NCBI GenBank assembly: GCA_037176885.1
Contig: JAWWNJ010000023.1
Location: 1,984,001-2,048,000 of the forward strand
Reading direction: 5' to 3'
DNA: 64,000 nucleotides
Origin: Favolaschia claudopus
Lineage: Eukaryota; Basidiomycota; Agaricomycetes; Agaricales; Mycenaceae
A program made the position numbers and the translations under genes. The notes beneath the pieces were generated by a model, which was given only the letters and a program-made list of their open reading frames with translations, did not search any database and was not told where the DNA came from. Shown in pieces: positions 2,509 to 28,030 of this stretch; the first letter of the stretch is position 1, and each line of letters opens with the position of its first letter.

Positions 2509-2990
2509 ATGCAGCCATTAGCTCGCCAGCCCTCACGCATAAGCCTCCTTAGTTGGTGGTCAGACAGCAATCCAAACCTCCAAAGCCCAGCAACAATCAA
2601 CCTGCATGCTGTTGCCAAACCACTCATGAAATTTCTTTATCATCGTCAAGCATTGGATATTATCAAGCACAATCACAACTGTCGCCTCACTGCCGAAACC
2701 TTGGACATCTATGCCTCTTATCTTCCGTACGTGGTTACGTACCTCATTTGAAATTCACTGCATGATGCCTAGATGGAAGTTTGTTGCATGGTCAACAAAA
2801 GCGGCAGTTCTGTTGGAGATAAACCACCACTGCCTGCGTGGGTTTCCAGATGAACTTGCAGAGCATTCAGCAATCTATTCATCTGTCTTACCTCAAGCCA
2901 GGAAAATGCTTGCAGCACCCAATGTGCAAGTGCGACTTGCATCTTGTGAAGTGTTAGGAAGCCTGGCGAGATATAAAGACAAGTTTTTTT
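2509..2990 (+). pseudogene. WWSDSNPNL/ARM-like family gene A, 5' half (split by KDZ element)
   Basis: Exon 1 (2509-2726, 218 bp) encodes the family N-terminus with SWWSDSNPNL, ATINLHAVAKPL and FLYHRQA motifs, ending SYLP. A 46-bp phase-2 intron (2727-2772) follows. Exon 2 starts with the typical WKFVAWSTKA and is cut at 2990, where the inserted transposon immediately supplies a TGA (2990-2992). The exon resumes at 8587. Across the element (counting one copy of the 8-bp duplication) exon 2 would total 267 bp, a multiple of three as in intact relatives. The insertion therefore looks recent and is the main lesion. Function is unknown; the fold is inferred to be alpha-helical, armadillo-like. Confidence 0.85.
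2983..2990. repeat. Left target-site duplication GTTTTTTT
   Basis: This is identical to 8579-8586. Its 8-bp length fits hAT and Zisupton/KDZ-type transposition. Confidence 0.8.
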
Positions 2991-2999
2991 GAGTAATAT

Positions 3000-3260
3000 G
3001 CCCGCCGGTGGAAAGTTCATTGGCGGCCACCATTGGCCGCTGTTGCATCTTGGTGGACGTTGTCGGACGTCAAGAGATGTTGTTGGACAACGGCTCCCAC
3101 AGTACGGCAAGATAAGATACTGATATCCGTTGACATCCGGCAATCTCCACTGGCGATCATCGGCCCATAATTCTCTTGTCATCCACCAACATCCACCATT
3201 ATCCACTGGCTTTCATTGAACTTTACTGGCGGCCAAGCTACACGTTTTCTATAATTCCAT
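3000..3260. repeat. Left subterminal repeat region of the KDZ element
   Basis: Short words recur: ATCCACCA or TCCACTGG, CATTGG and GTTGG/TCGGACG. The same TCCACTGG and CCATTG words recur in the right subterminal region (8380-8560). Repeated subterminal motifs are typical transposase docking sites; that role is inferred here. Confidence 0.55.
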
Positions 3261-3389
3261 CCAGGCTAGTCATCTGAGGTACTGCCCATATGGCCAACGG
3301 GCTTCAATGGCCGTCGCTGGCGCCCATAAAATCCCAGCCATCTTCGAGCGAAAACTCAGTTACTTCACCACTTTCCCCCCACTTCTGCT

Positions 3390-5395
3390 ATGTCTCAAGA
3401 CGTCCCCGCAATCACCAGCGCACCTTTTCATAAGAAGCTTAAGGCTGAGCTTCAGATCATTGCATCTGAGATGGGCTTGAATTCTAATGCTACCGTCCCG
3501 AACCTTCGCAAAGCAATTCAAGAGCACCCGCGCACGCATGCGGAATTGGCCGACAACCCGAAGTATCTCACTCTCTTCGCACAGCGCACTGGCGCGGCTC
3601 CTCCTGCTCGAACCTCTGCGGACAAAGCCAATGAAGAGGCATTGCAGGAGCCTATTGTTCCCGAGACGGTCACCGGGTGCGCAAATTTATTCCTTATATC
3701 TCTCTTTCATGAACGGGGGCTGATGGCACGAATGAAGCGCTAATCGCACTCTGATCGAGCGCAAGATCAAGACCGATCCGCCAGCCCAATTTTCGAGACT
3801 CTCTCTCGAGGACGGCGCGGCTCATCAGCGCAAATCGGTAGATGAAACGCTCGAGCAGGGTGCGTGAGGGGTCTCCTCCATTTTCCTATTTAACTGTCTG
3901 TCAGATTCCGAGTCGGGATCGGATTCCGAGTCTGTTGCGAGTCGTCCCGCAACTCCCGTTCGCCAGGAACAAGACAAGAAGGCTCCGGCGCATGAGCAGA
4001 AGAAAGCAGTTCATGCTGCTCTTCCTGGTGCGAGGTGTCTCCTCTCATTTAACTTGATGATCGCTGAATATATTCAAGAGGTCATTCGAGTCAATTTTTT
4101 TGACATGAATCGACCTCAGGCACGGCCGCATGAGGTCCCCGTTCTTAGTCGCGACGTGAATATCGCGACACTTGCAGCCCAAACGGGCGGCGTTGAGTAC
4201 GTCGCCTCCCTCAAGGAACTCCTTCCCGTGGCGTTTGCGAATGATTCCCCCGTGAAAGGTATGTAAGCTTTTTGACTGTTATCTGTCATATACTGACCGT
4301 GCTGTTATACAGAGCGCGCGGGGAGAATCTATCGTCCCAATGTTCGCCGCGACGCCTCCCCACACAATGTTGGGAAGGTGGAAGCTATTCTCGACGGGGT
4401 CTCTCGCCCACTCAACATTCCCGAGCTTAATGCTTATACCCTTCGCGACGAGGGCGGGAGTCTTTTCTGTGACCTTTATATGTCCACCTCTGACGGTGTA
4501 GAACATTCTGATGAGACTGCGCCGGTCGGCGGTAATGAGACTCCCGCGGTATGAATATCATTGACTACACCATTCATCTCGTTTACGCTTGCTCAGGATC
4601 AACGTCTCACGTTCACTGGGGCAGGCAGCGATATTCCTCTTGCAATCGCGAGGGATCGCGCCGTCCACAATCCCAGTGTCGGTGACACTTTAGACGCTTT
4701 CGTCGTGTTCCTCCATGCGTTCCTGAAGGAATCTATTCCCGAACTCCCCGACGCGCGTCATGTGTGGCCTCGTGCAAAGTATATTAGCACGATGCTTCTG
4801 CGCCACTTACTTGAGGTAAAGGTTATGACGGTTTTGACTGCTTGGAGTCGTCCAACTGGCGGGTACCTTGTTCCGCACGGTAAGTTCTTTTTCTTGTGAT
4901 TCACTACGTCGACTTATATTCCTATACATAGGTCATGGTGAATTCTCCGGGATGAGATTCACCAAGGACGAAGTTCTGCTTACCATCAACATCAAGAGCT
5001 CGAGCTCGAGCAACGATAACCTTCTTTTTGCTCCAGACAACCTCGCGCCGTGGCCGAGAGCGAAGGAATGGTACGAGAGCGGCGGTAAAACTCACAAGGA
5101 TTCGTTTGACAGAATGACGACGTCCAAGTTCAAGAAGGGCCTCAAGCAGCGCCTCGATGGTTCGGATCATCCTCAGTCCAGCGCCAGCAGGAACCGTCGC
5201 CGCAGCCCTTCGCCGTCTGCCGCCGAGGGCTCCTCGCGTAAACATAGGCGCTCAGTCAGTGTTTCTAGTGACGATTCGGTGGACTTGAAGCGTCGCTCCA
5301 AGAAGAAGGGGGCTTCGAAGAAGCGGCGGGGGCGCTCCATCACTTCGGAGAATTTGGACGACAATGTCCCTTTGCACTTGGGGTATAGCTATTAG
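3390..5395 (+). CDS. KDZ-element companion gene, unknown function (564 aa)
   Basis: Seven exons are supported by phase: 3390-3676, 3738-3859, 3905-4027, 4079-4258, 4313-4548, 4597-4879 and 4932-5395. The N-terminal ~80 residues look like a small SAP-like helical domain (LKAELQIIASEMGL...TVPNLRKAIQEHP). The middle is acidic and Ser-rich. Two folded-looking blocks follow (NVNIATLAAQTGG region; LTFTGAGSDIPLAIARD to the GHGEFSGMRFTKDE region). The C-terminus is very basic and Ser/Arg-rich with KRRSKKKGASKKRRGR, a likely nuclear signal. It lies within the transposon termini, on the same strand and 155 bp upstream of the KDZ gene, so it is probably element-encoded. I do not recognise a known transposase fold. 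A DNA-binding accessory role is inference. Confidence 0.7.
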
Positions 5396-5550
5396 TTTAC
5401 ATGTTGTTTGCATTCATAAATTCGAGTACTTGCCATTTGCGCGCACATAATGTTTACGCGGCTCAGTCTAAGAATCAAAAAACGGTACACACAGCACTGC
5501 AAACAAAGACACAGCCCTTAGGCATCTTGTTCTTAACCTTCACCACGAAG

Positions 5551-7755
5551 ATGCCGCCAACTGTGAGCGATCTGGTTCTTGTCCTCCAATTGTTTCTTCC
5601 TGCCGGACTCTCAATCGAGAAAGCCTTCTACCTAATCGGTGTCATCATATCGATTTATCCTTTGCTTCGTCTCCACATCAATCAAAGGCGACAGCCTCAC
5701 CAGCCGGCACGTACTGCGTGGACGAAAACAATTCTGACGCTTCTCAAGGCCGCGTTCAAATCTGACAGTGACGAGGATGACTTGGTGTGGGCTACAGGAA
5801 TGGATTTCACGCCAGACGACTTCGCACAACGTATCTGCGACGACCTCGAGCCTCTGTATAACATGCTCGGTCTCAACCCGCAGAACCTGGCTGCACAATC
5901 TCCTGGCCTGCTATTTCCAACTCCACGACGTATCCTCTGTACCTCCAGACTTTCCTGCGCATTCTGCCCAGTCGCAGACTTGAATATCATCCCGACGCTT
6001 CGCCGACGTGTTGATAATCAGACAGTTTGGATTCTCGACGAATCCTTTGGCTGGGTCCAAGCAGATCTTGTAATCGCCCACTGCGCAACATGTCGCGCGG
6101 ATTATTTCCCCGATCGCATTACCTACAAGGATGCGAACGGGCGGCGCCGCCAGAAATTGGAGTTATCTACCGATTTTCTGCGCATCTCGAAACACGGGAT
6201 CTGGGCCCACAAAAAAATCGCCCTTTTCCAAGAACACGCTGTTCATCGATTGCATGCCGGGTGGTCAAATTTGGCAGAATTGATCAACGACTTCACGGGA
6301 ACGCAGAGAAAGCTCACCTATCGGCAATCGCAACGGCTCTTTGTTGAACATTTTTCCCGCCGTCTCCTTCATTTCCACAAACGGGACAACTTCTCCTGCG
6401 ATGCACACCCCAGTACAAAATTGCTGGCAGAGGCAGTTCGGAGAGAGATCGGGGTCAATGGCGGTTTTTTAGAATCCGCGATGGCACATGGCTGCACGAA
6501 TTGTACACATCTCAAACGCTATCGATCCGATCTTGCTGCTGAAGGAGCGAATTTCGGAGATGCACAGGGCGTGGCAGGAGTGGAAGCGGATGGTGGATCT
6601 GTACGCCCTTTGATTTCATTTTAGCCCGTACAAACTAACTTCCCCGATGAAAGAACGCCAACGCACCTGATGTAGGTGAAAATCCTTTCGATCCGCCTGC
6701 ACAACAAGATGCGCCGCCGGCCGGGCAGCCGCGAGGATATGTTCGGTTAGCGGTCATGGACGGAAAAAACATACCGCATCAGGTGCGTTAAGATCGAGGC
6801 TAGTGCACGGTCGCTGATTTTGTTTTGTTGTGCTAAATAGAAATGTGCACTTGACCAATGCGAGAGACCTCTCGTCAATTACAAAAATGGTCGTTTTTGT
6901 GAAGCGCATCTCAATTTGCAAGATGTTTGCGGTATCGTTCCTTGCGGGCTCCCCGTTCAGAGTCCTGGTGCTCTCACTTGTGCGACGGAATCTCACATTC
7001 AATGGCACCGGGATTACAGCTCCCGTTTTGCTCGCCTGTCATTTCCAGGAGTGCGTCGGGTCATTCGCCGACAACAGGAGCATAGCGCGAGCAACGGACA
7101 ACACGGACCCACACTTGAAGTCGCCCTTCCCCCCCTCGGCGACACTCCGGGAAATCAGGTGGTACACACCTTCAAAGCAAAGTCAACATATTGCTTGCAG
7201 ACGGTTCAGTGGGCTTGCGGTTATCCAGTGGGATGGGGCAAATGTTACCGCTCGGAGAGCTCACCTCAGGTCTTGGGCATTCTCAACCGCATCTGGGCAA
7301 ATTTCCCGAACTTCAAACCAAGCTTCGTTGCATACGACGACGCCTGCAATCTGCTGCGCCACATTATCACTCAGAATCCCAACGATCCGTGGATTGTCAC
7401 GACCAAGTTCATCGTAGACGCCTGGCATTACATCAACCATCGCGCTACCGACGTTCTTTGCCGTTTGTGGTGCAATCCCGCACCCAAGAACGGCTCTCAA
7501 CCAGATCTCGTGCTAGTTGAAGAGGATTCTAATGGGATTCAGCATGAAACCCGGGCGTTTAATACGGAGACAGCGGAGCAGCTGAACTCGTGGCTCAGTG
7601 GCTTTGAGTCGCAACTTCGACACATGTCCGACGTCAACTATGACTTCTATGTTCACGTTCTACTGATGATTTACGCCGAGCGGGTCGATAAACATGTCGC
7701 AGCCAAGAATTTGCAGTTGAGCGAGGAATTCTGGGCGGAGGCTACTGGGGAATAG
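5551..7755 (+). CDS. KDZ-type transposase-associated protein with CxC5 and CxC6 cysteine clusters (687 aa)
   Basis: Exons are 5551-6592, 6676-6782 and 6841-7755. The introns of 83 and 58 bp restore frame exactly. The N-terminal half carries a CxC5-type cluster (LSCAFCPVADL, then CATCRADY) and ends with AHGCTNCTHLKRYRSDL. Exon 3 opens with the CxC6-type cluster (KCALDQCERPLVNYKNGRFC, then CGIVPCG and GALTC). The C-terminal part has the pattern YDDACNLLRHI, FIVDAWHYINHRATDVLC, CNPAP and NTETAEQLNSWL, matching the end of RNase-H-fold KDZ transposases, with candidate acidic catalytic residues. KDZ (Kyakuja-Dileera-Zisupton) is known from basidiomycetes. The reading frame is intact, so the element may still be active. 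An upstream in-frame extension to 5401 exists, but the ATG at 5551 gives the better start. Confidence 0.85.
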
Positions 7756-8570
7756 TAGATATTTCACAACTAGTTAGATCTCGATTGTAAGCATCGACAG
7801 ATTGTTTGGATGATTAGGACTGAATATTAGGAGTATATTTAGGCGGACAGTCATTTTCCTTTTTTGCATTCTGGACATACAGAGAACATATGATGAGTCT
7901 AAGAAGCCGTATATATCTGGCATTCTCTCATGATGGACGCGACACAGAAACAAAACATGTGACCGTATCGACCTTTTCGTCCCTCTAAAACTCTGGTGAT
8001 GAACCGAGACAAAAACTTTTGAATGTCTAGTCTAAGCGTACCTCGATGGTATTCCCAACTTCTGGCTTCCCTGATCGAGCAGTTCACAATATACAACGAA
8101 AAATAAACATCTCTTTCCTAATTGGGGAACTGGTTGAAACACCGGGTGTTTATCGAGATTCTGATGATAATTCTCCTCAAGAGCTCGAGGATAGTAATAT
8201 TGTGCTTATAACAGTCTACATTGCAAGTGTACGCTTCCCTGAAGTCGTACTTTGCATGTTACTGAGCAAATGATCCGCATTGATATTACTTGATCATGAA
8301 CTTAATATTATTAGTATACAAGCAAACACTTTGCTAGATCCCATTGGCAGCCGTACAGTTTTCCTTTTTTCAAACCCATTGAAGTTCATTGTACTCCAGT
8401 GATATCCACTGGAACAACTTACGAGCCAGTGAACTCCACTGGAGAACGTCGACTTCCACTGGCTGCATTCAGTCCATTGTAGTCCATTGAACTCCATTGA
8501 TTCGGCAAATGCGGTCCAGTGGTAAACAGTGCCGAACGGTGCCGAACAATGCCGTTTCCACTGCCGCGTG
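7756..8570. other. KDZ element 3' non-coding and subterminal region
   Basis: No convincing gene is seen. From about 8380 to 8560 the sequence is a string of TCCACTGG, CCATTG(AA/TA) and GTGCCGAAC words matching the left subterminal region in inverted orientation. This is the right terminus of the transposon. Confidence 0.6.
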
Positions 8571-8578
8571 TATTACTG

Positions 8579-8586
8579 GTTTTTTT
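8579..8586. repeat. Right target-site duplication GTTTTTTT
   Basis: This is identical to 2983-2990. It directly follows the TATTACTG right end of the KDZ element. Confidence 0.8.
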
Positions 8587-8938
8587 CAGCTGTTTTGGAG
8601 CAGGATCCCTGTGGATCGCTGGTTGCTCTGTTGCAGTGAGCATCTTTATTTAGGTTTCACTATATTGTTGAATCAAGATCAGGGATCGCGACCGGAAAGT
8701 TATTCAATGGGCAGTATATGCATTATGCTGCATCACAGCATTTATAGAGGGTGCAAAGGCTGTTGTCACAGCTAATGCTCTGGACCATGTTCCCCAGTTA
8801 GTCGGGCCCAGTAGTAGCCCAGACATCCGAAGCCGTACACGCCAGTTGGTGAGAAATATTGAAAACTTGTCAAAACATCTGCAGATATCTATCCGAGGAT
8901 TGGAGCACTGCTTGGATTTGGTGTCGACAATAACGTGA
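8587..8938 (+). pseudogene. WWSDSNPNL/ARM-like family gene A, 3' half
   Basis: This continues the frame of 2773-2990 after the transposon. The remainder of exon 2 (8587-8635) ends with the family motif LEQDPCGSLVALLQ. It is followed by a 47-bp phase-2 intron (8636-8682) and the terminal armadillo-like exon from 8683, with VIQWAVYALCCIT, EGAKAVVTANALDHVPQLV and RSRTRQLV. A stop lies at 8936-8938. A strong donor (GTGAGT at 8935) could extend the gene by another exon. Without its 5' half this fragment is unlikely to make a normal product. Confidence 0.8.
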
Positions 8939-9458
8939 GTCTCATTTGACCCACCAGTGGTCCTGGAAATAATTGTCAATTCTGGATATTCAGCAAAGAC
9001 GGCGAGCTGCCTCCTTTCCAAATCCACATCACAGTCGCAAGAGAGGTCTCCACAGTGTTTTGACACTGACATTCCGTCACACATCTGTACATTTTCCCTT
9101 AGTGTTTGTTCGACCTTTTAGGTGTCCCAGCACTGGATTGATACCTACTGTTTAACAAACTCAAATTCAGAGTTCAATTTCAAGCATTGATGGTATCTCT
9201 CCCCTCTAGCTTTGCTCCCCGATAGACTCGGAGACCATTGAAAAGCATGCACAAGTCCTGATTCCCCGATTTATCGCCCCGATCAGTTAGTTTGTAAGTG
9301 CTAAAAGTTTCTTGAAGATCTCCCAGAATCAAAAGTGTTCTCTTGAACCCTTGCAAGTATTGTCTGTTAAAGTGGTTTTATTGATGATTGGTGAAGGACT
9401 TGAGAGCAGCAGTAAGGGGATTTCAACCAAGAGCACCGGGTAGTCACCTAACTTCAAG
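8939..9458. other. Intergenic, no supported gene
   Basis: Short open frames only. It may contain a further 3' exon or UTR of the split gene A. Confidence 0.5.
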
Positions 9459-9738
9459 TCATATTGTAACTTCCGTAGATGGCAACATTCCGTTCGATGA
9501 GATGGATACCCCAGTCAATTGAGCATTGTGTAGCGCAAGGTTTGCCATGAGCTTCCAAGCGAGAATCTGTATCCGTTGGGTTGAGTCAAATAACCGCGGA
9601 TGTGACCAATGAAACGCTGCTGTGGAATCGCCCCCGAAGGCTTTGGCTACAATGATAGATTTTGCTCCGTCCAAAAAGGCAATTTGCGATAAAGCGAATA
9701 GGGCTTGTTCGATGACGAGGTTCGAGTCGTCGTTGACG
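9459..9738 (-). pseudogene. Orphan terminal exon of an ARM-like family gene
   Basis: One continuous frame reads DDSNLVIEQALFALSQIAF, LDGAKSIIVAKAF, then FDSTQRIQILAWKLMANLALHNAQLTG and VSISSNG, ending at a stop at 9459. This matches the last exons of the family members at 19054-19390 and 23028-23355. No N-terminal or internal exon lies upstream on this strand. The expected splice acceptor AG just before the exon is AA. It also lacks one residue in the conserved IALSLDGAK stretch. It is probably a relic left by rearrangement. Confidence 0.75.
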
Positions 9739-10471: not shown

Positions 10472-11260
10472 ATGAACCCACTGTCACGCCAGCCCTCCCA
10501 TGTCAGCGTACTTAGTTGGTGGTCCGACAGCAACCCAAGCCTTCAGAATCCCGCTACTATCAATCTTCACGCCGCAGCGAAACCTCTTCTCAAATTTCTT
10601 TACCGGCGGCAGGCTTTGCAGATCATCGAAAAAAATCGACGGTTGCCTCTCACCACCGAACTTCTGGACATTTATGGCTCATATCTACCGTACGTTTTCA
10701 CTGAAAGCCGACCTAGGCAAACTGGAAAAATCTCGCTATATAGATGGAACTACGTTTTGTGGTCAACCAAGGCAGCCATTCTTTCCAATATAACCCTGCG
10801 TGTCCGATTTGGATCCCGAAGTGACGCGTATTCCGTGGTTGAATCACCTGTCTTTTTGTTTATACCCGAAATGCTGGATTCACCCGACATTCCGACCCGC
10901 GCCCGCGCATCTGAGCTGTTGGGATGTTTGATACTGCACACTGGGGTCGGGGTCGTCCTAAAATTAGGCATGTGCTCAAGACTCGTTTCCCTCCTAAGGT
11001 CTCTTCCATTCAGACGTGTACGCCAGTGCTTGCTCATACTCAATCTCCAGCGACAAATCGGAGGTGGTCGTCGAACAGGCTGCATTTGCCTTGTCCGGAA
11101 TTGCGCAATCGTTGGACGGTGCAAAGGAGATAGCTCAAGCCAGTGGCTGGACTCTCGCTCCGCCCCTTTCTGGCTCTACTCTCCCTCGTATCCGAGAACT
11201 AATGGCCACCTTAGTGTTAAACCTCGAAAAACACTTGTACAGCGAGTCTGAGGTCATCAA
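10472..11260 (+). CDS. WWSDSNPNL/ARM-like family gene B
   Basis: Exon 1 is 10472-10689 (218 bp) with MNPLSRQPS, VLSWWSDSNPSL, ATINLHAAAKPL and FLYRRQA. A phase-2 intron (10690-10743) follows. Exon 2 (10744-10998, 255 bp) runs from WNYVLWSTKAAIL through VVESPVFLFIPEMLDSPDI to LVSLLR. After another phase-2 intron, exon 3 from 11051 carries SDKSEVVVEQAAFALSGIAQSLDGAKEI and ends in [15 protein letters not shown]. It is a minimal member with one internal exon. The usual C-terminal TGVSI segment and a stop codon are missing: the frame stays open into the trehalase coding sequence (to 11411). The 3' limit given is therefore approximate. The family's function is unknown. Confidence 0.75.
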
Positions 11261-13935
11261 AACTTGTGCTCATGGTCCCAACCAGAAGCTCCTCATCCTA
11301 CACGAAGCAATAGGTCCTCCTCTACCCATCACATTCATTGAAGATGACGCCGTGACCATTGATACGACCGATGGAGCCGAATCTTTCACTCGCCCTCGTG
11401 CATATAGTGACGTATGGTTGCTCTGCTCCTCCCCCAAGTCACCCTCAACTCACGACATTTCCATATAGCCCTGCTTACCCGGTTATACCCTCAGAACAGC
11501 ACGCGCTGGCCATCATCGTAAACGACGTATGTCCAATGATGAAAAAGCCGTCACTGCACCGCGACGTTTCCTCGTAGACGTCGAAGAGACCATCCGCGCC
11601 GTTCTGGAGCAAGAGGACACCCACGGCGACCTGCAGATCACTGTCGCTGACGCGAGACCAAAGTTGGTGACCATGAGAACAGCCACCAGCGACGGATTCA
11701 AGAGCTTTGACATTCGCGGCACATACATGCTGTCCAGCCTTGTACATGAGCTCGTGCTTGCTCGCGATAATCACCTCAAGCGCATTGTGCTTGACGAGCC
11801 TCTCCTCACAGAGAACCCCGTCGACCGCCTCTCACGGATGATCAAAATCTCGTTTTGGGACTCCCTGACACGCCGCATCGATGGGGATGGCTTGGAGACC
11901 ATTTCCGCAGACCCGAAAACCCGTACGGGGGGAGTCAACCCCCGCATCTATGTACCCCACGGGGAGCCCGCTATGGCGGAATATTACAGGCAAGTTGCCA
12001 GGAAGAAACCCCACGCGAATCTCGACGTGCAAGTCTTGCCCCACAAACCGGATGATCCGGGTTTTGTCAGGAGTCTCGATAACAAGCCGGGTATCTTGGC
12101 GTTGGCTATGAAAGAGGTCGACGGGACTCTGAAGGGTATTCCGTTCGTTGCCCCAGGCGCACGTTCCAATGAGGTATGTGTTTCTTGGTGTTTGTATCCC
12201 TCCCGTCTGATGGCTCCCGCAGCTCTACAATTGGGATTCGTACTTCATCACGCTCGGGTTACTGGTAGATGGTCAGGTGTCGTTGGCGCGGGGACTGGTC
12301 GACCACTTCATCTTCGAGATCAAGCATTATGGCAAAATTCTCAAGAGCTCGCGCTCTTCCGACCTCTGTCTCACTCAACCACCGTTCCTCACCGACATGG
12401 CTCTGCAAGTTTACAATCGGCTCGATCACTCGGATCTTGCTGCGAACCGCGCATGGCTGAAACGCGCCATCGAAGCAGCGATCAAGGAATACCACACCAT
12501 TTGGGTCGCCGAGCCTCGTATGGATCCTAAGACTGGCCTGTCACGTTTCCGTCCAGACGGCCTCGGTATTCCACCGGAGACGGAGGCGACACAGTTCGCG
12601 CACATCTTCGAGCCATACGCCCTCAAGCATGGGCTCTCCATCCCCGAGTTCGGCCAGAAGTACACCGACGGTTTGCTCAAGGAGCCCGAGCTGGACCAGT
12701 ACTTCCTGCACCATCGCGCCATGCAAGAGAGCGGGCATGATGACATTGTCAGCACGTCTCGGTTTGATGAACGCTGCGCAGATATGGGCACGATCGATCT
12801 ACAGGCGTTGCTGTACAAGTACGAGGTGGACATCGCGACGGTGATACGGGAAGTGTTTGATGATGAGCTGGAGATGGAGGAGGACTTTGCGTTGGCGCCG
12901 TTCCCGCCGTCGGTCGAGTCATATGCAAGGCCGCTTAGCACGCGCGAGCGCAGCAAGGCAAGGGCGCAGACGAGTGAGGAGTGGTTTGCGCGTGCGGAGT
13001 GGCGGAAGGGGGTGATTGATGAGTATTTGTGGGATAAGAGCAAGAGTATGTATTTCGACTATGATACGGTGAGGGAGGAGCAGAGCTCGTATGAGAGTGT
13101 TACGGTCTTCTGGGCGCTTTGGGCTGGATGTGCGAGTGAGGAACAGGCGTGGCTTCTTGTGTGCGTTACCTCTCTTTTTTGCTGTTCATCTCCTGAATGG
13201 TGTAAAGGACCAAATCGCTGAAGAAGTTCGAGGTCCTGGGAGGGTTGGTTCCCGGAACGGAGCAGTCCTGGCGTAAGATGTCGCGCAGGTCCACATCGAA
13301 TGTGCCGAGGGATCATCCGTACGGTTTTCATTGGTTGAATTTGATGTGCGCTCTATTCTGATCCTGTCCTCCAGTTACGCTTGGTGTGTTGCTCGTCCGT
13401 CTCCGGCCATCCGTTGCTAACGTTCTCGTAGGCCACCGCACCAAATAATGGCTTGGGTCGGACTGGAACGATATGGGTATCTCGAGGAGGCTCAGCGGCT
13501 TGCGTACCGATTCCTCTACATGTCTGTGTCGTCGTCGTCGTCATGGCCGTCATCTAAGCTGACATTGGTCTTAGGATGACAACCGCATTCGTTGACTACA
13601 ACGACGTCCTCCCTGCAAAGGTAACCAAATCAATCATCATTATCGCCATGAAGTCCAACCAACCCTACCTCTGTCAGTTTGACGCCATGAGGCACTCCCA
13701 TCTTGTCGATACCGAGTACAAAACCGAAGATATCGATTCGAAAATGGTCTCCCGTGTAGGCTTTGGGTGGACGAATGGTATTTCTGTCCCCACTCGTAGA
13801 CATCGACATTGACACCCGTCTCTCTTCTTAGCTGCGTATCAAGTCGGGCTCTCATTCCTTACGACGTACATGCGACGAGCGGTGTCTCTGTGCGCCCCGC
13901 CGGAAGTAGTGTTCCGTAGTGACGCGCGACAATGA
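11202..13935 (+). CDS. Neutral trehalase, GH37
   Basis: Predicted to hydrolyse trehalose to two glucoses in the cytosol. Exons: (11202)-11411, 11469-12173, 12223-13160, 13208-13333, 13432-13521, 13575-13620, 13678-13777 and 13832-13935. Recognisable blocks in order: [14 protein letters not shown] (a possible PKA site, as in fungal neutral trehalases), [12 protein letters not shown] (Ca-binding-like), [47 protein letters not shown]...[77 protein letters not shown]. The usual PGGRF and QWDYPYGWAP signatures are altered (PGARS; a [14 protein letters not shown] sequence). The start is uncertain: the only in-frame ATG (11202) lies inside sequence that resembles the ARM-like gene upstream. Confidence 0.85.
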
Positions 13936-14445
13936 TAGTAGGTTTGGTGCACGAATTCCATTGCGTTCCATGAAGACATTTCTTTGGGTGCGAGACGACG
14001 TACTAGTATGCGACGGACGATACGAGCGAGCTATGCCATGGTGTTCGTCCATTACTGCCTGAAAGGTTTGAGAGGGTTCCATGCAGGGAGCAGCGACGAC
14101 GGGCTCGAGATACTAGGAGGTCTGGCATCTGAAATGGAGAAGTCGCTGCCGTTGGGGCAAATACAATGGGATCTAGTAAGCACTTCACCGAAGAGGTATG
14201 AGCCTAGTTGCCGATTGTGCAGTAAACAAGCTCTGAGGCACAGCGGATTGTCGACAGTGGTTTGTTCTGATTGTGGCCCAAACGAACCGCACCCCTCTTT
14301 TTCAAGTCGCATGTGGTGCATCCTTTCCTTGGAATCTTTCCGTATGTCCTGTATGCTACACCCACGCTAATTATAGTCTATGGCATCTCGCTGTGCAACA
14401 GCCCATGTTAGCACCACAGCCTCGACGCTCTCTTCTGCCCCCACC
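13936..14445. other. Intergenic, nothing recognised
   Basis: This is the trehalase 3' region plus the promoter of ARM-like gene C. Open frames here have no conserved features. Confidence 0.5.
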
Positions 14446-16284: not shown

Positions 16285-17276
16285 TTCCAAGGTGGGCCAC
16301 TCTCTCTGAGTCTGACGGTTCTGGAAATCAAACTGAAGGATGAATGTGGTGTGACAGGTCTTACAAGACAAAAAGAAAGTTGTAACCAAATGCATACGGA
16401 GTTCAGCCTCGGGTAACCACGAACATTCATATCAGTACTGACATTCAAAGCCTAGGACGGTTGTTCAGTGGTCATGTATTTCAGTGCAGAGATTCCGTTC
16501 ATTGTCATGAGCTTGATAGTGCAGACATAGTGCAGACATTACCAGATGAATAAGAACTTCTACTAGCAGAGAGCACGCGTCAAAAAATCAGGGACCGTCA
16601 GAGTAGGGTTTTTGAAACAGTTCACAAGGCGTACCGCAACAAGTACACTCACTACTAAGAGGTAGTGCCCACGAGGCAATAATAATGGCGGAGAAAGACC
16701 AGGGAAAATCGTCTGTGGTTGGTAGATTCAAGTGTGGATTTGCGGGGTATATATATAGTGGCAGATGCATCTAGCATCGAGCCATAGAGCATAAAGAAAC
16801 AAGCTATCTACATACTCAGAAAGAAAAGGAAAGAGAAGAAGCCGCGCGGGTGTCGGGGAGGAGGGTGAGGAGTATATGGTCATTGACAAGAAAGTCAAGA
16901 AATTTATCGTCTCGCAAAACCGCCTCTGGAGGCGATTCTGCATCGGGTTTCAAGTCGTAATGGTTATTCGACGTGGCAAGGAGTACAAGTACAGACAGTA
17001 TGGTAGGAATTATCGTCCGTATAGATACACGTATTCATTGGCATGGCGAGTAGACTACAACAGTACAAGGAGGGGAGGGAACGGAGTGTCGAGCATAGAA
17101 AGCAAAACATTTACGTAGAAAACCGGAGGAAAGGGATTCGGGATTCAATCAAGAGGAAGAGATGGGTAGGGGCTGATTCCAGGAAGAAGGGACGAAGGAG
17201 AGCGGAGATATATGGTATGGTATTAATAATCCAGGGAGGTATCGTAGAGAGGGATAAGGGGAAGGGGAGCAGCGAA
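16285..17276. other. Intergenic, no supported gene
   Basis: Open frames are short and basic, without conserved motifs. At 16588-16622 a segment (GGGACCGTCAGAGTAGGGTT) resembles one terminus of the MITE at 380-620, without a visible partner end. A purine-rich stretch covers about 16800-17200. Confidence 0.5.
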
Positions 17277-17952
17277 TCACTCCCCGTGTCTGCCCAAAGA
17301 GCGAGCATCGCGGCCCACGATGCGGGCAATAGCATTTTTCGCTTTCGCGCGTTGCGTTCTACACCATCGTCAGCTTCAGACTCTCACAGAAGAAAAAGCA
17401 AAACACTCACTCTCCAGCAGCCTCGCCCTCCAACTCTTTCACACTGTCCAACGCATCCTTTACCCTCGCCCGCGCATGCAGCACCGCCCGATCCGCCTCG
17501 GCTTCTGCCTCCGCAGCATCAGCGATCTTCTTCCGGGCGCTAATGACGGTGGGGTCCTGCGAAGCGATACGGCGCTTGAGGGCGGTAGTAAGCAAGGATG
17601 TGCCGCCGTTAGACTTGACTGAGCCCGTCCCGGATTTCACAGACATGGCTTTCGAGTTGACGGAGGCCGGAGACGTCGGCGGCGTCGACGCCGAGACGGA
17701 GCGACGCGACGACGCGAGTGATTCTGCGCTTCGTCGTCGGCCGAAGAAGAAACCGCTCCTGACGGAAGCAGCGTCGGACGCCGTGTCGGCCGTGGTTTCG
17801 GTGCGGTGGGAGGCGGCGGAGTGGTAGGAGGAGTTACCGGCTGTGGTGGTTGAGGGTGAGCGGAGGGAGCTCCATTTGAATCCGGTTTTTGGTGGGGGTG
17901 TTGGGGGTGCGGGTGGAGGTTGTTCAGCTGGACGAGACTGGAAGAGCGGCAT
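17277..17952 (-). CDS. Ser-rich protein of unknown function (207 aa)
   Basis: Two exons: 17952-17411 and 17358-17277, joined by a 52-bp intron that restores frame. The N-terminus is Pro-rich (AEQPPPAPPTPPPKTGFKW). The middle is Ser/Thr-rich with SVRSGFFFGRRRSAESLASS and SVKSGTGSVKSNGG. The second half is a charged helix (ARKKIADAAEAEAEADRAVL, VKDALDSVKELEGEA) continuing into exon 2 as RAKAKNAIARIVGRDARSLGRHG. I do not recognise the family. The conserved-looking helical tail suggests a coiled-coil scaffold or phosphoregulated protein; this is inference. Confidence 0.65.
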
Positions 17953-18253
17953 TGGTTTTGGTGGAGACGACTTGTTGGAGAAGTTGGGGTATAAAAGGTG
18001 GATTTTTGCGATGAGGTCATAGCGCCAACAAACCGCAAGGCAACAAAAGGTGGAGTTGACGCGTTGTCGAGTTAACTGCTTTCACGTGAACTTATTATGG
18101 ATGGCAGGGCTACGTTGAGGAGGCCGAGCTTGGCTTGAGCAGCAAGAGAAGAAAACGACGAAGAAAAGGAAGAGAGACGGTCATCAGAAAGCTGGAGTAA
18201 ACAGACCGGAGTTTGCCGCGTTCACGCACCAGCATCTGAAGATGAGGAATGGT

Positions 18254-18863
18254 CAAAAGGATGGGAGTGGGACTCGGGTAAACCCCGGATAAAGGCTGAT
18301 AGTGGGACTCGGATGCTCGGAAAGGGAGATTTAAGGTCTGATAGTGGGACTCGGCTTTCCGGCACATCAGAAGAAATGATTGAGATCAATGGCACGTAAT
18401 TAGGAGAAAAAACACGCCCCGACCCTTTAAAATATTCCTGGCCCCACGCAGTGGGCCTCCGCGGCGAGCGGTAGCACCACGCAGTGGGCCCAGCGGCGAG
18501 CGACAGCACCACGCAGTGGGCCTAGCGGCGAGCGTCAAGGGGGGTCCGCGGGGGTCTCCCCCGCTACATGAATCAAATTTTCACAATAAACAATAAAAAT
18601 AACTCGAGATACTGAATATAACTCATAAAATATGCCGTCAGGCTCAAGGAGGGGGGTCTGGGGGGAACTACGTTCCGACCAGAATTTTTTCAGCTTAGAA
18701 ATACACCCAGAAAGTGATTAAACACATTAAATACACGTTTCGGCTCTAAATGCCGAGGATTGATGCAATGTTGATGTGTTGATCCAGCGTTGATTGCTTG
18801 TGATGCAAAAGACATCAACAGTGGGACTCGCTTAAATAGCCGAGTCCCACTCCCATCCTTTTG
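18254..18863. mobile_element. Non-autonomous TIR element with internal tandem repeats
   Basis: Positions 18254-18277 (CAAAAGGATGGGAGTGGGAC...) recur inverted at 18840-18863 with no mismatch over 24 bp. The interior carries repeated GTGGGACTCGG words (18266, 18301, 18344 regions) and a three-copy tandem repeat (18444-18536). It has no open frame of note and no clear target duplication. MITE-like; superfamily not assigned. Confidence 0.65.
18444..18536. repeat. Three-copy tandem repeat, unit about 31-33 bp
   Basis: The unit CACGCAGTGGGCC plus AGCGGCGAGCG occurs at about 18445, 18478 and 18509. It is GC-rich, with partial dyads, and lies inside the TIR element. Confidence 0.75.
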
Positions 18864-19053
18864 GCATATACTCTCTGAAGATCTGAAGTTGAACATCTAG
18901 CCAAATGATAAATCGGATTCGACATTCAATGTTTGATACAAACTCTGGCACTAGCATTCGCCGTCTGTTGGTCCGCAGCTCCTTCCAGCCCAGATCTGCA
19001 ACCCACGATGACATATACTTAGTATCAACCAAGGGCAGTCCAGCGACTCGGAG

Positions 19054-21037
19054 TCAGAGCCGCCGGTTCAATAGTCTCAACTTCCAAACAACATCTCCAG
19101 ACGGAGTCTCCTCCCGCGAGACACATGCACCAGTCAATTCACTGCCATGTGTCGCAAGTTGTCCCATCAGCTCTGAGGTTAAATCTTGGGTTATAGCGGT
19201 TTCGCAGAGACTGTCCGTCCCACTAGTGATCGAGACAAATCTCACCGGCCGCCAGAGCGGCCATATGTAAGTCATTGTGTCGCTTACGTCTGAAAAGATG
19301 GCATGGACGATGGCTTGTGCTCCGTCCAGGGATATGGCAATTTTTGATAATGAGAATGTTGCTTGTTCGACAGCGAAATCCGCGTCGTTGCTGGAGATGA
19401 ACTTCATGTCAACGAAAATCAGCAAATGATTCACCATAAAACTGACCGGAAGATATTGACTAGCTTCGGGCACGGATTCAACTCCAAGACGCTGGCGTGC
19501 GATGCCAGATGCCCGAGCAGCTTGCAAGTCAATGCTCGAGTCCCTATATGTGGTGAGTCGAGCAATTCTCCTAGAAGGGCGAAGACAGGAGAGACGACTA
19601 CTGCCTGTGCGTTACTCGGTAGTTGCTGAGCTCGGAAATCCAGCTGCGATAGGAGAATCATCTTGGTTTCCCATGAAATACAAGTTGATCTACTCGCGAG
19701 ATCCTTCTTAGTGAAAGATCGGGGCTGTATACAAGGCGACACATACGATAAAGACAAATACGACGCATAGGCCTGCAATATCGTAGCGCTCAGACGTTTG
19801 TCGCGGGTCTTGGCTTCATGCGACAAAACCTGTTGGTGGTACAAAGCCGACAGTAGAGCTTGAGCAGCAGCTGTCAAAATGCTTGTCTGCTGCTTTTCTC
19901 GAGATTCGAGAACGTGCTGGACACGCGAGAACACAGGGGAATCGACCACTGCTTGAGCTTCACTATCATCTGTACAAGCTCGGCTTTTCAAGTCGTCGAA
20001 TATCGTCGCCTTGGTCGAGTCTGAGATCGACGGCAATCTACATGAGTTAGAGCTCAGGCTCATCATTCACCGACCCAGCATAAATAGTAACGGAAACGTA
20101 CGTCAGATATGCTGCATATTTGTCTAACAAATTAGCAGAAAGAGGCACGTCTTGGCTCTTGTGGATCAACGCCGAGACTATGGTATGATGCAAACATTGA
20201 ATGACATATTTCGCGGCGGCAGCCAGGGCGAGTGCTTCTCTATCTTGATTCTCAGGCTTAATTTCAGGGAATTCGACCATTTGCTGGAGGATACATAGAA
20301 CGGGAGAATTGAGCACCGCCTGGGTGTCGCTCTCAACGGAAGCCCGGGATTTCAGCGTGGACAGCAACAATCCTTTTGTTGACCATGAAAGAAGATTCCA
20401 ACTATCCACATTACTTAGCGTCGTATATCCTTAGACGAAGTAAGCCAAGGCTTACGACAAATATGCGGCATATCCGTCCAATATTCCTGTTGATAAAGGC
20501 TGCTGGGAATTCTTTTGAATGAAGCTCAAGGCCTCTTTATGATGAAGAGATTCCATGAGAGGTCTGCCGGCGATTTGCAAAGTGATCGCTTCCCGGTCCC
20601 GATTCTGGTCATCCAGCGTCCATTCGAGCATCTGTTGGAGTTGAATAAAAATGGGAGAGTCCACTATGACCTGTGCATTGCTGGGAACGCGTGCTCGTTC
20701 TTCCAGCTCGGACAATATGAGTGCTTTGGTCGATGTGGAGACGAAGTTCCATCTGGTAATTCCATCGGAGGCTTGTCAAGAAAGCCAACGAGGAGGCAAG
20801 CATGAAAACATACGGTAGGTAAGACGCATAAATATCCAGCAATTCGTCTGTAAGAGGCCCGAAGCGGTTTTTCTTGATGATATCCACAGCTTGTCGATGA
20901 TGAAGAAACCGCATGAGAGGCTTGGCTGCTGAGTGAAGGTTGATGGTTGCAGGACCCTGCAGGTTTGGATTGCTGTCGGACCACCAGCTGTGGATGCTTG
21001 AGCGCGTTGTCCGCCGAGTCAAGGGCTGCTGCTGCAT
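19054..21037 (-). CDS. WWSDSNPNL/ARM-like family gene E, four internal exons (563 aa)
   Basis: Exons: 21037-20814 (224 bp), 20752-20456 (297), 20401-20102 (300), 20037-19747 (291), 19689-19447 (243) and 19390-19054. Every intron is phase 2, and every internal exon is a multiple of three long. Exon 1 has IHSWWSDSNPNLQG, ATINLHSAAKPL and FLHHRQA. Internal modules start WNFVSTSTKALIL, WNLLSWSTKGLLL, LPSISDSTKATIF and CISWETKMIL. Most end LSA..LD.YAAYL. The fifth exon ends LELNPCPKLVNIFR. The last carries NDADFAVEQATFSLSKIAISLDGAQAI. This is the longest intact member and the best template for the family. Helical, armadillo-like repeats are inferred from the pattern; function is unknown. Confidence 0.85.
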
Positions 21038-22095: not shown

Positions 22096-23355
22096 ATGAA
22101 CCCCTTGTCGCGCCAGCCGTCGCGCCTCAGCGTACTGAGCTGGTGGTCTAACAGCAACCCAAATCTCGAAAATTCCGCCACTATCAACCTCCACGCAGCA
22201 GCAAAGCCGCTTATGAGGTTTCTTTACCATCGCCAAGCTATCACTACGGTTCGAAAGAATTCGGGGAAGCCTCTCACATCTGAAATGCTGGAAATTTATG
22301 CATCTTATCTACCGTATGTGCTCAATTACTTATGCCTTGTGGACGGCTGTTTCGCTGATCAACACTACTCGAGACAGATGGGACTATGTTTCAGTGTCAA
22401 CCAAGACAATGATTTTGTCGGTGCTAAATTCTCATATTGAACACGATTTCAAGGCCGCAGAATCGGTGCTCAATTCCCCTGTTATCCCGCATCTGAAGCC
22501 AATGCTCGAATTACCCGGAGTTAGGTTTCGAGCCCTGCTCGGTGAACAAGTCAGACACCTCATACAAGGCATATATCTCAAGGACGCGGCTGCCTTGATT
22601 GAACAGAACTGTAGCCGTCGCTTATCGCCTGATTTATTGACAACGTATGCGTTGTACTTGCAATTACCTGGGCCGTACGTGTTGCATCTACTCAAGTGTC
22701 TTTCTCGTTTTTTACCACGATTCGCAGAGCGGACCATATAATCGAAATGGTTTTATCCGATTTGAATCTTCGAGTTTGGGTTCGGCCGGTTGAAGCCCAA
22801 ACGATCGTTGATTCACCTGTGTTCTCCCTCATACCGCAGCTGCTAGAATCTTCTATCAGCTCTATTCGAGCTGCTTCAACCGAGCTGCTGGAAAAGCTGG
22901 TGGCAAATATCGGCGTGCTAGCCGTACTGGAACTAGATGTGTGTTCAAAACTCGTCGCTCTCCTGCGGTCAGTTTCTTAGTAACTCACAAATCAATTGCT
23001 TCATTCACTTACATCCAACGTCTGTAGCGACGACTCCAAACTTGTCGTCGAACCAGCCATATCCGTTTTATCGCACATTGCAACATCTTTGGAAGGAGCA
23101 AAGATCATCATACCTGCCGTCTACTCGGATATCGAGGTATCTGGCGGGGATCTGAATTATCCCTTCTGTTGGCCGGATCAGCAATTATTCAAGTCTCGCC
23201 CGAAAATCCGTACTCAGGCTCGGAAGCTCATGAAACGCCTCGCAGCGCATGATGTAAACTCGACTGGTGTGTCGATTCGACGGAATCCGGCCATCCCGGA
23301 GGCTACGATTTGGACGTGGCATCGTCACGGTCAGGGAATATCTGTTCCCTTGTGA
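22096..23355 (+). CDS. WWSDSNPNL/ARM-like family gene F (360 aa)
   Basis: Exons: 22096-22313 (218 bp), 22378-22674 (297), 22728-22967 (240) and 23028-23355. All introns are phase 2. Exon 1 has MNPLSRQPS, VLSWWSNSNPNLEN (D to N change in the signature), ATINLHAAAKPL and FLYHRQA. Exon 2 starts WDYVSVSTKTMIL and contains VLNSPVIPHLKPMLELP. Exon 3 has IIEMVLSDLNLR, TIVDSPVFSLIPQLLES and LDVCSKLVALLR. The last exon has DDSKLVVEPAISVLSHIATSL, RTQARKLMKRLAAHD and STGVSIRRNP. It is an intact two-internal-exon member. Confidence 0.85.
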
Positions 23356-25753: not shown

Positions 25754-26166
25754 GCCGGGGTGGGATGAAGTTGGTGTTGTTTCCGTTTTGGATGATACCC
25801 TTGTGATACCGGCCTGATCTTAGGCAACGACGATTTGAAGTGTGGATTAATATACGTTTGCTCCCGCGGAACCAACTGGAGTTTACTCCTATTCTCAAGA
25901 CGTTCGCAAATATTCGATATCTCAAAATCAGCCAAACTGCGGACTCAAGCAATTGATAGGCGTGCATGATACATGAAGCAGCCGAAGAAATCGAAGACAA
26001 TAAGATAATCGCAGCGCCAAGCCTGCCAAAAAACAAAACCGCCAACTCTGCTTCCCATTCCGATCGAAAGGTAAACCACACACATTCTCTATTGTGCGCG
26101 AGTGAGCAGGATGAAACTGGAGCAGAGAAACTGACTTGCCATTGATGTTAGCACAACACCAGTCGC
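25754..26166. other. Intergenic, convergent 3' region
   Basis: This lies between the dehydrogenase (+) and the pheromone-like gene (-). It may hold the pheromone gene 3' UTR. Nothing else is seen. Confidence 0.5.
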
Positions 26167-26343
26167 TCAGGCGATGACGCATTGACCGCTAGACCCGGTC
26201 CCGCTGTCCTCATTGACGGTGGGGAGGGAGGTATCCTCTTTGCAGACGACGCAGCTGCCGTCGGCGCCCGTGCCGCTATCCTCGCTGGTGGGGGGGAGGA
26301 CGACGTCCTCGACTTTCTTGGGGATGGTGGTGAAAGAGTCCAT
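26167..26343 (-). CDS. CaaX pheromone-precursor-like small protein (58 aa)
   Basis: A small open frame runs from an ATG at 26343 to a stop at 26167-26169. It encodes a 58-residue protein ending CVIA, a farnesylation/CaaX box of the type used by basidiomycete lipopeptide mating pheromones. The last part reads NEDSGTGSSGQCVIA. A closely similar unit, SEDSGTGADGSCVVC, lies 24 residues upstream, so the precursor has an internal duplication. Basidiomycete precursors are usually 40-100 aa with a charged pair 10-15 residues before the CaaX; ED fits that place. A TATAAAA box lies about 98 nt upstream of the ATG (26447-26441 on this strand). No STE3-type receptor is in the window, so it could be a non-mating-type pheromone-like gene. 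Confidence 0.7.
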   Translation of the reverse strand: MDSFTTIPKKVEDVVLPPTSEDSGTGADGSCVVCKEDTSLPTVNEDSGTGSSGQCVIA

Positions 26344-26440
26344 GGATGTGGATGATGGGAGGATGGGATACGGGAGGGAGAGAATGGACGCAAGGGAAGA
26401 GCTTAGCTTAGGCTGGGGAATAGCTCGAACTCTCCTCAGC

Positions 26441-26447
26441 TTTTATA
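26441..26447 (-). promoter_or_regulatory. TATA box of the pheromone-like gene
   Basis: TATAAAA on the minus strand, about 98 nt upstream of the ATG at 26343 and followed by a pyrimidine-rich leader. This spacing suits a short-leader, highly expressed fungal gene. Confidence 0.55.
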
Positions 26448-26743
26448 CTCTTGACGCCACCGCTGCGTTATTGTGAGTAAGAAAATGGGTACGCCGAGCC
26501 GATCGTTTAGTTCACCAACAATAGCGAGAGCCGAATGAAACAAAAGAAGGGATCGATAGCCTGATCGAGCCGCAGCGAGGAATCCGAGACTTGATGATTC
26601 GCGTGCGTTGTCTTAGAACGTTCTGACTCGTTGGGAAAGTCTGATCAACGGATGCCGAGACCGAGTTGGACGAGAAATCTGCCGTTCACAATGAATCCTT
26701 GGTAAAGATTGCTTCTATTTTTCACTTATCTATGATTTAAACA

Positions 26744-28030
26744 TTATACTCGCAAATTGTCCGCGCTAGATCCCGATATCATATACCTCTCATATGTATC
26801 CTCCCAAGACTCATACAAGCACGATATCTCGGCCTTCAATCGCTTCGAATCGTTCTCTCGAAGCAAAATTGAACTCTCGTGAACGCGAAGACATCGCAGG
26901 AGGCCTATGACACTTTCCCGGAGATAAACGTCTTGAACAAAGCTCTCTGCCAGTGCCTGAAGACTTTGTTTACAATGCAGGAAAATGGTAGACGCTTGAG
27001 TCCCATCTCGCTCAACCTGGCGACGAAGTTCTGAAAAAATCATTGCTTTCGTCGACGCCGAGACGAAGGTCCACCTGGTCCCATTCACTTGAGTGATCCT
27101 GCTTCATGAGATAGATCGGGGCACGTACGTCAAACACGAGGCATACACCTCCAATAGTTCAGCGGTCAAGGGTTGGCCACGTTTCTTCTCGATCAGACTT
27201 GAAACCTGGTGAGCGCAAAGCGACTGCAAGAGGCCGGATGTAGCCTCCTGAAGTGCTAGATCTTGCATGAAGTTGGCATCCGGGGACTCGAGAATTTGTT
27301 CAATGCAATGCCGGAAAATGCTAGAGACTTGACTCTTGTCTCGTTGAACTCTGCAACGGAGCTCCGATACAATCATCGTTTTGGCTTCCGCTGAGACGAG
27401 TCTGTAACTGTTTACGGACAATTCAACAATCCTGCCTATAAGGCAGGTAGTTCACAACACATACGACAAATATGGAGCATACAGCTCCAGGATTTCGGTG
27501 GTCAAGGGCAGGCCGGTGGTCCTTTCAATCAAGTACGAAACCTGGTGGTCATACAGAGATTGCATGAGCTGTAGAGCGAGCTTCTGAAGACCGGGGTCCC
27601 GCAATGACCTGTCCGATGACTCGAGGATGTGTTTGAGATGCGAGAAATGGCAGAACTGATCAAGGCTTGTGCTTGGCTCTCGTCACGTTGAAGACCGAGA
27701 GTGACCTCCGATAAAATCATTGCTTTGGTTGACGCCGAGATAAATCTCCACCTGAGTCTAAATTGAGCAAGCTATGTTTGGACGCGGAAGATGAGTGACT
27801 CGGAACACGCACGGTAGATACGATGCATACAACTCCAGGATCTCAGCAGTGAGTGCCTGTCCATGATAGGTTTGGATGATTTCCATGGCTTGTCGATGAT
27901 ACAGATATCTCGTGAGAGGTTTCGCCATAGTGTGAAGATTGATAGTTGCTGGGCTCTGTAAGTTTGGGTTGCTGTCGGACCACCAGCTGAGGAGGCTGAC
28001 ACGAGAGAGCTGGCGAGCTAATGGATTCAT
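26744..28030 (-). pseudogene. WWSDSNPNL/ARM-like family gene G, frameshifted in exon 2
   Basis: Exons: 28030-27813 (218 bp), 27751-27465 (287), 27407-27129 (279) and 27074-26744. Exon 1 has MNPLARQLS, LLSWWSDSNPNLQS, ATINLHTMAKPL and YLYHRQA. Exon 2 starts WRFISASTKAMIL but changes frame near 27643-27648. Its second half is coding in another frame (HLKHILESSDRSL, LTTEILELYAPYL). Its length of 287 is one short of a multiple of three, unlike every sister exon, so a single base is missing (biologically or by sequencing error). Exon 3 starts YRLVSAEAKTMIV and exon 4 WTFVSASTKAMIF. The last exon has a diverged tail without the armadillo-like terminal exon, as in gene C. Confidence 0.75.

Follow-up and report, generated by a model that had tools for sequence, protein, structure and literature searches.

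A modular WWSDSNP gene family with tandem phase-2 exons and divergent alleles at one locus of Favolaschia claudopus

Comparison with described systems

The stretch of DNA analysed here, a 64,000-nt window of Favolaschia claudopus (Mycenaceae) on contig JAWWNJ010000023.1 (C23; positions 1,984,001-2,048,000), carries six related genes (A, B, C, E, F and G) that begin with a WWSDSNP-containing N-terminal domain and continue in tandem, symmetrical phase-2 exons. Phase-2 exon arrays running into the thousands have been described for the leucine-rich repeat (LRR) genes of Tetrahymena, whose authors, in the available part of their paper, knew no other eukaryote with equally uniform exons and introns (PMC6564038). 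As far as that part of the source goes, both systems have tandem symmetrical phase-2 exons encoding a repeat protein and a lineage expansion; in Tetrahymena, however, the repeats are LRRs in exons of exactly 90 bp, whereas here helical units of about 97 residues are encoded by exons of variable length (273-315 bp) at one locus. The Podospora hnwd genes het-d, het-e and het-r, likewise a polymorphic fungal repeat-protein family, encode STAND NTPases whose WD repeats are highly conserved and evolve in concert, according to the accessible portions of two reports (PMC1805685, PMC2873952). Their repeats are nearly identical, whereas those of the present locus are 22-53% alike and no NTPase match was found in B, C, E and F. 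The word 'armadillo' is absent from the main text, in so far as it was available, of a review of fungal immunity (PMC10197012).

Related genes are found within the Mycenaceae. Genes annotated as 'armadillo-type protein' with a WWSDSNP start (F. claudopus P0018, Mycena galopus P0020) have the same N-terminal domain followed by armadillo (ARM) repeats, and three such F. claudopus loci that were modelled (L047-L049) share the phase-2 first intron. These genes have one N-terminal unit and many ARM repeats, whereas at the present locus the N-terminal unit itself forms the array and no more than one or two ARM exons are left. This domain is also found in P0045-P0055, named 'putative G protein alpha chain' or similarly, as is a phase-2 first intron in the loci read, but these proteins end in a G-alpha-like GTPase where the present genes encode a solenoid. 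Mycena leptocephala P0006 and M. latifolia P0056, P0059, P0065 and P0066 resemble the present genes in having a second or further N-terminal unit, complete or in part; P0006 has one contiguous join, while its other copies and those of the M. latifolia proteins are at least 62 residues apart, unlike the arrangement at this locus.

The modular family of this locus is real and well supported, with a local unit that is new and alleles that diverge unusually, and the exon shuffling and recognition role proposed in an earlier note on this DNA go beyond the evidence. It may capture a fungal repeat unit in the making, with a probable fusion scar, phase-matched exons, duplicated units and three versions that can be compared; it points to an N-terminal domain, unmatched in Pfam, that a single mushroom family has in both its ARM-repeat and its G-alpha-like proteins; and, being compact and highly allelic, it is a candidate for tests of non-self recognition in basidiomycetes.

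Exon organization of the genes

Gene models were rebuilt from splice sites and reading frames. Gene B (10472-11468, plus strand) has exons at 10472-10689, 10744-10998 and 11051-11468, gene C (14446-16284, plus strand) at 14446-14663, 14719-15009, 15061-15525, 15578-15892 and 15945-16284, and gene F (22096-23355, plus strand) at 22096-22313, 22378-22674, 22728-22967 and 23028-23355. On the minus strand, the exons of gene E (19054-21037) lie at 20814-21037, 20456-20752, 20102-20401, 19747-20037, 19447-19689 and 19054-19390, and those of gene G (26744-28030) at 27813-28030, 27465-27751 (frame-broken), 27129-27407 and 26744-27074; gene A is interrupted and is described below. Exon 1 measures 224 bp in E and 218 bp in the other five genes. 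The module exons measure 273-315 bp (C2 291, C4 315, E2 297, E3 300, E4 291, F2 297, and G3 273 or 279 depending on which of two acceptors is chosen) and the pre-terminal exons F3, E5 and B2 240-255 bp. All 18 introns (one in A, two in B, four in C, five in E, three in F and three in G) have GT/AG ends and are in phase 2; the internal exons stand in tandem, are symmetrical (2-2) and vary in number from one to four among the six genes. The rebuilt models reproduce the exon 1 lengths, the 465-bp fusion exon of C, the exon of about 287 bp in G, the intron phases and the internal exon numbers reported in the earlier note.

The window has colinear stretches on two other contigs of the assembly, C140 and, in inverted orientation, C51. 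Exon hidden Markov models (HMMs) were made from the window's own exons, so that matches within the window hold by construction; in C51 and C140 they gave exon series for B, C, F and G identical to those of the window. Modelled E (563 aa) is 100% identical to deposited F. claudopus P0001, which carries 34 additional N-terminal residues, modelled F is contained entirely in deposited P0015, and the C51 copy of gene C reads like deposited P0004, so that the deposited annotation uses the same junctions. The agreement of these proteins and the recurrence of the series in C51 and C140 rule out a chance origin of the exon pattern.

Distribution of the N-terminal domain and the arrayed unit

The N-terminal domain consists of a WWSDSNP tail and a two-part helical unit, a 'YHRQ' half and a 'STK' half; exon 1 is present in all six window genes, each with a phase-2 intron after SYLP. 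Homologue searches returned at least 26 proteins with spliced E (among the best 8000 candidates scored), 22 with residues 20-190 of P0015 and 61 with the first 140 residues of a G-alpha-type paralogue. Combined, these are 99 different proteins, every one from Mycena, Favolaschia or Roridomyces, which belong to the Mycenaceae by taxonomy (one species per genus), and by these searches the WWSDSNP family has been found so far in Mycenaceae only. Exactly one copy of the two-part unit is present in 83 of the 99 homologues. In five of the 99, no more than 25 residues separate a STK half from the YHRQ half after it; these contiguous joins are in F. claudopus P0001, P0004, P0015 and P0017 and, once, in M. 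leptocephala P0006.

Regarding the assembly (264 Mb), at least 121 matches to exon 1, a few of them internal modules, and at least 69 matches to the E exon-2 unit were found. With the exception of two weak hits on C22, which cover 12-97 and 12-92 of 98 and contain a stop each, the near-full-length matches to the unit all come from the three versions of the locus (C23, C51 and C140) or from a gene G copy on C88. An exon-HMM scan of 12 other 10-kb stretches detected modules on C88 only, the other 11 having exon 1 and pre-terminal or terminal-type exons. Automatic models, which are unreliable near their ends, gave phase-2 exons over most of the length of two ARM-type loci on C66 (L047 and L048) and mixed phases beyond exon 2 in a third (L049). 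Of 16 plus-strand exon-1 loci read by a script, ten of them copies of the locus, 14 showed a phase-2 first intron, including all six located elsewhere; the two misses were a choice of an earlier GT and a locus without a donor fitting the pattern, and the scope was the plus strand, leaving out 14 minus-strand loci. The phase-2 first join is therefore general among the loci read, and the arrayed unit is local within the assembly.

The partners of the domain are mostly ARM repeats, by listed domains and names. The G-alpha domain (PF00503) is the partner in 11 of the 61 proteins from the search with the G-alpha-type paralogue (E 1.6e-65 in P0048), and P0045 can be aligned to solved G-alpha chains. 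The consensus of the N-terminal domain had no match in Pfam, and in a PDB sequence search with the A2 profile the best stretch among the matches listed (60 of 228) starts at 106 or later, past the N-terminal domain. Among open-licence PubMed Central papers, none was found for Mycena with armadillo or with heterotrimeric G protein, and no title on F. claudopus or on expansions concerned the WWSDSNP family.

Fusion of the domain to G-alpha-like GTPases was observed in both Favolaschia and Mycena (loci L041 and L044 on contigs C26 and C101, and P0045-P0055); L044 is of the G-alpha type and L041 was assigned likewise by likeness. The usual G-alpha switch residues appear, by eye, to be altered in P0045. 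Mycena venus P0027 combines the N-terminal domain with a C-terminal part without Pfam match, a further partner.

Divergence among haplotypes

A mitofilin-like gene at 59993-61276, about 32 kb away, is present in exactly three copies, on the same three contigs as the locus, and an unlinked WD-repeat gene (C66:1027100-1029202), which we take to be Tup1-like, also has exactly three high-identity copies. The assembly was therefore read as three haplotypes; going by these two genes, its 265 Mb may represent three haplotypes of about 88 Mb each rather than one large haploid genome.

Compared with C51 and C140, the flanks of the window diverge by 5-8%, with 4.7-5.2% for the trehalase gene, 4.9% for the TrAA12-like gene, 6.0-6.7% at 25754-26640, 6.2-6.4% at 29071-30800 (presumably a beta-lactamase-like gene), 5.1-5.2% at 31000-32000, 7.4-7.7% at 16900-17450 and 8.3% for the open reading frame 17451-17954. 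Allele divergence is about twice as high in A (13.8-14.1%), C (16.0-16.8%), G (15.9-16.3%) and F exon 2 (13.5-14.5%), with little or no rise in F exon 1 (8.7%) and F exons 3-4 (6.7-8.0%). C51 and C140 differ from each other by 4.4% overall, by 2.1-4.2% at C, F and G and by 7.6% at B. Two allele classes are present at C, F and G, that of the window haplotype and one common to C51 and C140, and the higher value at B indicates that its allele classes are split differently. Genes C and F are open in all three haplotypes, apart from one in-frame stop in the last C exon of C140, and the exon lengths of gene C differ between haplotypes by whole codons.

Replacement change in the module exons

Ratios of replacement to silent divergence (dN/dS) were calculated by NG86 for the window against C51 and against C140, two comparisons that are not independent. 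Against C51, the pooled values were 0.15 for exon 1 (C, F, G), 0.57 for modules (C2, C4, F2, G3), 0.31 for ARM exons (F3, F4) and 0.18 for flanking genes; against C140 they were 0.16, 0.52, 0.25 (with B2 and B3 among the ARM exons) and 0.16, respectively. By pooled dN/dS, the module exons thus have more than three times the replacement change of exon 1. The counts of replacement to silent changes against C51 are 150:72 for the modules, 27:42 for exon 1 and 46:72 for the flanking genes, and the modules differ from exon 1 (Fisher p 3.6e-5 for C51, 2.9e-4 for C140), from ARM exons (p 0.026 and 5e-4) and from flanking genes (p 5.7e-7 and 8.6e-7). Single modules range from 0.33 (G3) to 0.97 (C2; 0.93-0.97). 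Silent divergence (dS) amounts to 0.34-0.38 both for exon 1 and for the modules, compared with 0.15-0.19 for ARM exons and 0.17-0.18 for the flanking pool, in which the highest value is that of tre2 (0.27). Replacements occupy 38 of 182 cells in hydrophobic columns and 119 of 343 in other columns. The pools excluded A1, A2 and tre1, of which the first two are broken in C51 and the last has a frame break there; the nearly identical B1; the fusion exon C3 (0.51-0.57); C5; G2 and G4, whose pieces contain stops; and bl2, with 23 codons. B2 and B3 were outside the C51 pool, and gene E, without a counterpart, was outside both. The pattern fits a conserved head followed by a variable, still constrained solenoid, and is no proof of positive selection.

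Turnover within the locus

Gene A retains exon 1 (2509-2726) and the beginning of exon 2 (2773-2990; gene model and exon HMM), where it is cut by a 5.6-kb KDZ-associated DNA transposon (2991-8578, strand not assigned) with inverted ends GAGTAATA and CAGTAATA, an 8-bp target duplication GTTTTTTT at 2983-2990 and 8579-8586, and CxC5 and CxC6 cysteine clusters, which are associated with KDZ transposases. The displaced remainder of the gene (8579-9050) includes the last exon, of terminal ARM type, at 8699-8896 (weak HMM match, E 7.5e-5); all parts of gene A are on the plus strand. No match to the transposon was detected in the C51 and C140 stretches, which places it in one haplotype of three. Gene E is likewise confined to the window haplotype, no counterpart having been found in C51 or C140; elsewhere in the assembly, its exon 2 has no near-full-length match above 45% identity and short partial matches of up to 55%.

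An unlinked copy of gene G (L039; C88:156086-157467, 1.4 kb, 86% identity) lies in a 10-kb stretch that shows no likeness to the first 40 kb of the window other than the family exons. Of 109 informative sites, 106 unite the window G with this copy rather than with its own alleles, so that either the allele classes predate the duplication or sequence has been exchanged. Mosaicism of gene G (exon 1 versus modules, against C88) was considered and dropped, since the distances fit one tree.

In a tree of the modules, made without the frame-broken window G2, modules cluster with their positional counterparts in the corresponding gene of other haplotypes, the G modules group together (support 88/89) and E2 and E3 pair (90/82). 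Because identity within arrays is 22-53%, there is no repeat homogenization, and the module and exon-1 trees rule out homogenization or shuffling among genes.

Regarding the earlier note, duplication of exons within genes, the fusion exon in C, relics and the presence or absence of genes between haplotypes were all confirmed. Ongoing exon gain and loss or shuffling, which it had also claimed, was not upheld, as the exon series of B, C, F and G is unchanged across three haplotypes and modules group by gene and position. Its plan for gene A needs correction for the inserted element and the last exon beyond it; the frame break of G is present in the window, but exon 2 is open in the C51, C140 and C88 copies; and an orphan exon exists, although there are two terminal exons in this part, the one at 8699-8896 and a second at 9468-9731, and which was meant is ambiguous. 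Of the checks that it had proposed, clustering of internal exons grouped them by gene and position as described, the fold of E was predicted (below), and module dN/dS across the three haplotypes was raised relative to exon 1 with a pooled value below 1.

Predicted fold and origin of the unit

The predicted model of E has a mean predicted local distance difference test (pLDDT) score of 80, mostly about 90 in the module blocks, and five helices per module; a model of a G-alpha-type protein (mean pLDDT 61) was used for helix order alone. The internal exon of about 97 residues is thus predicted to encode five helices of a helical solenoid, ARM-like C-terminally, and the products are probably rod-like binding proteins.

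In exon 3 of gene C (15061-15525), the STK half of a unit leads in frame into a complete copy of exon 1 that has its own start codon (15317-15525, plus strand; M..LARQ..SWWSDSNPNL). The start codon and the WWSDS motif of the embedded copy are present in all three haplotypes, as is an open frame through the exon, despite a length difference of 102 bp. This exon is a probable gene-fusion scar, possibly showing how the unit arose. The N-terminal domain that defines the family is read as a disordered tail followed by a helical unit split by a phase-2 intron, and normally caps ARM repeats or a G-alpha-like GTPase. We infer that at this locus adjacent copies fused, so that within one exon the second half of a unit came to be linked to the first half of the following one, that shortening of the WWSDSNP linker gave the regular module of about 97 residues, and that the resulting 2-2 exon was duplicated in place, as phase-2 ends permit. 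Since all junctions are in phase 2 and at or near loops between helices, an added unit would extend the alpha-solenoid with frame and fold intact. The products would most likely be cytosolic scaffolds for binding, in which the N-terminal part is constant and a variable superhelix contacts fast-changing partners. This account as a whole, a Mycenaceae family in which local fusion and duplication of a unit produced binding scaffolds, is the one towards which we lean.

Several observations weigh against it. ARM likeness of the predicted E fold is clear for the C-terminal part only, and among B, C, E and F the Pfam Arm cut-off (20.6 bits) is passed by F alone (20.8), B scoring 17.7 and E and C having no Arm match. 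The order of fusion rests on one gene, C; the 60 bases before its embedded start had no clear likeness to the upstream regions of the other genes (in the best case, 13 of 300 shuffles reach the score), the window's embedded exon 1 stands apart from its C51 and C140 counterparts in a weak tree, and the join in M. leptocephala P0006 means that contiguous joins are not unique to Favolaschia. The exon number of B, C, F and G is constant between haplotypes, and divergence of gene B is not unusually high (1.6% and 8.6%). Positive selection was not borne out, the pooled module dN/dS being below 1 and that of the partial module C5, outside the pool, just 0.19-0.20; three haplotypes are too few for site tests, and relaxed constraint could yield the same contrast between modules and exon 1.

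Relaxed constraint on spacer-like solenoid units is central to the leading alternative, an ordinary birth-and-death of a tandem family without a recognition role, which is quite possible if not the reading that we would choose. The pooled module values, which come near 1 in C2 alone, agree with it, as do the interrupted gene A, the frame break in G, the lack of E on two haplotypes and the orphan exon at 9468-9731. It accounts less well for open frames of C (bar the C140 stop) and F in three haplotypes, for length changes of C by whole codons and for the rarity of replacements on hydrophobic columns; the raised dS of exon 1 and modules relative to the flanks also exceeds what relaxed constraint alone would give, an objection limited by the ARM exons, whose dS is not raised. 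Alternatively, gene C could be two genes, the embedded exon 1 starting a second gene C', as the start codon and WWSDS motif conserved in the three haplotypes would allow; the junction frame, however, is open in all three with the 102-bp change in frame, and the deposited C51 protein P0004 reads through it, so that the fusion of adjacent copies into one gene is preferred and a two-gene arrangement appears unlikely.

Possible role in recognition

As judged from sequence, a recognition role for these scaffolds is plausible, if speculative, as is any binding partner. It is favoured by the twofold allele divergence of A, C, G and F exon 2 together with the excess of module replacements, and the pooled dN/dS below 1 and the unraised divergence of B weigh on the other side. 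A broader scheme, in which Mycenaceae would use, instead of NLR proteins, an intracellular recognition or signalling system based on this hitherto undescribed N-terminal domain, with N-terminal domain-ARM sensors, N-terminal domain-G-alpha switches and, at this locus, multivalent arrays binding like domains and variable units kept as old allele classes and presence/absence variants for self/non-self or parasite response, is distinctly doubtful.

The locus could also act in allorecognition in the manner of het genes, strains differing at C, F, G or E being incompatible after hyphal fusion and old allele classes being kept. The two allele classes at C, F and G agree with this, and the grouping of window G with the C88 copy would be expected if the classes predate the duplication; that grouping is, however, also explained by ectopic gene conversion, B, C, E and F have no NACHT or NB-ARC match in Pfam, the repeats are not homogenized as in het-d and het-e, and one strain holds different allele classes, though possibly in different nuclei, which together make such a function quite improbable. 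That C51 and C140 are segmental duplicates, so that the divergence would compare paralogues, is very improbable, for although 86.8% of BUSCO genes are duplicated in the 265-Mb genome of the strain according to the available part of its description (PMC10905254) and contig pairing was examined at two genes, both of these, the mitofilin-like gene on the same contigs and the unlinked WD-repeat gene, have exactly three copies.

Other features of the locus

The orphan exon at 9468-9731 (minus strand), a relic of terminal ARM type recognized by exon HMM, is also present in C140. A repeat resembling a miniature inverted-repeat transposable element (18260-18873, strand not assigned, left end not mapped) adjoins gene E; it has many copies and an inverted terminal match (40 of 629 genome-wide candidates scored).

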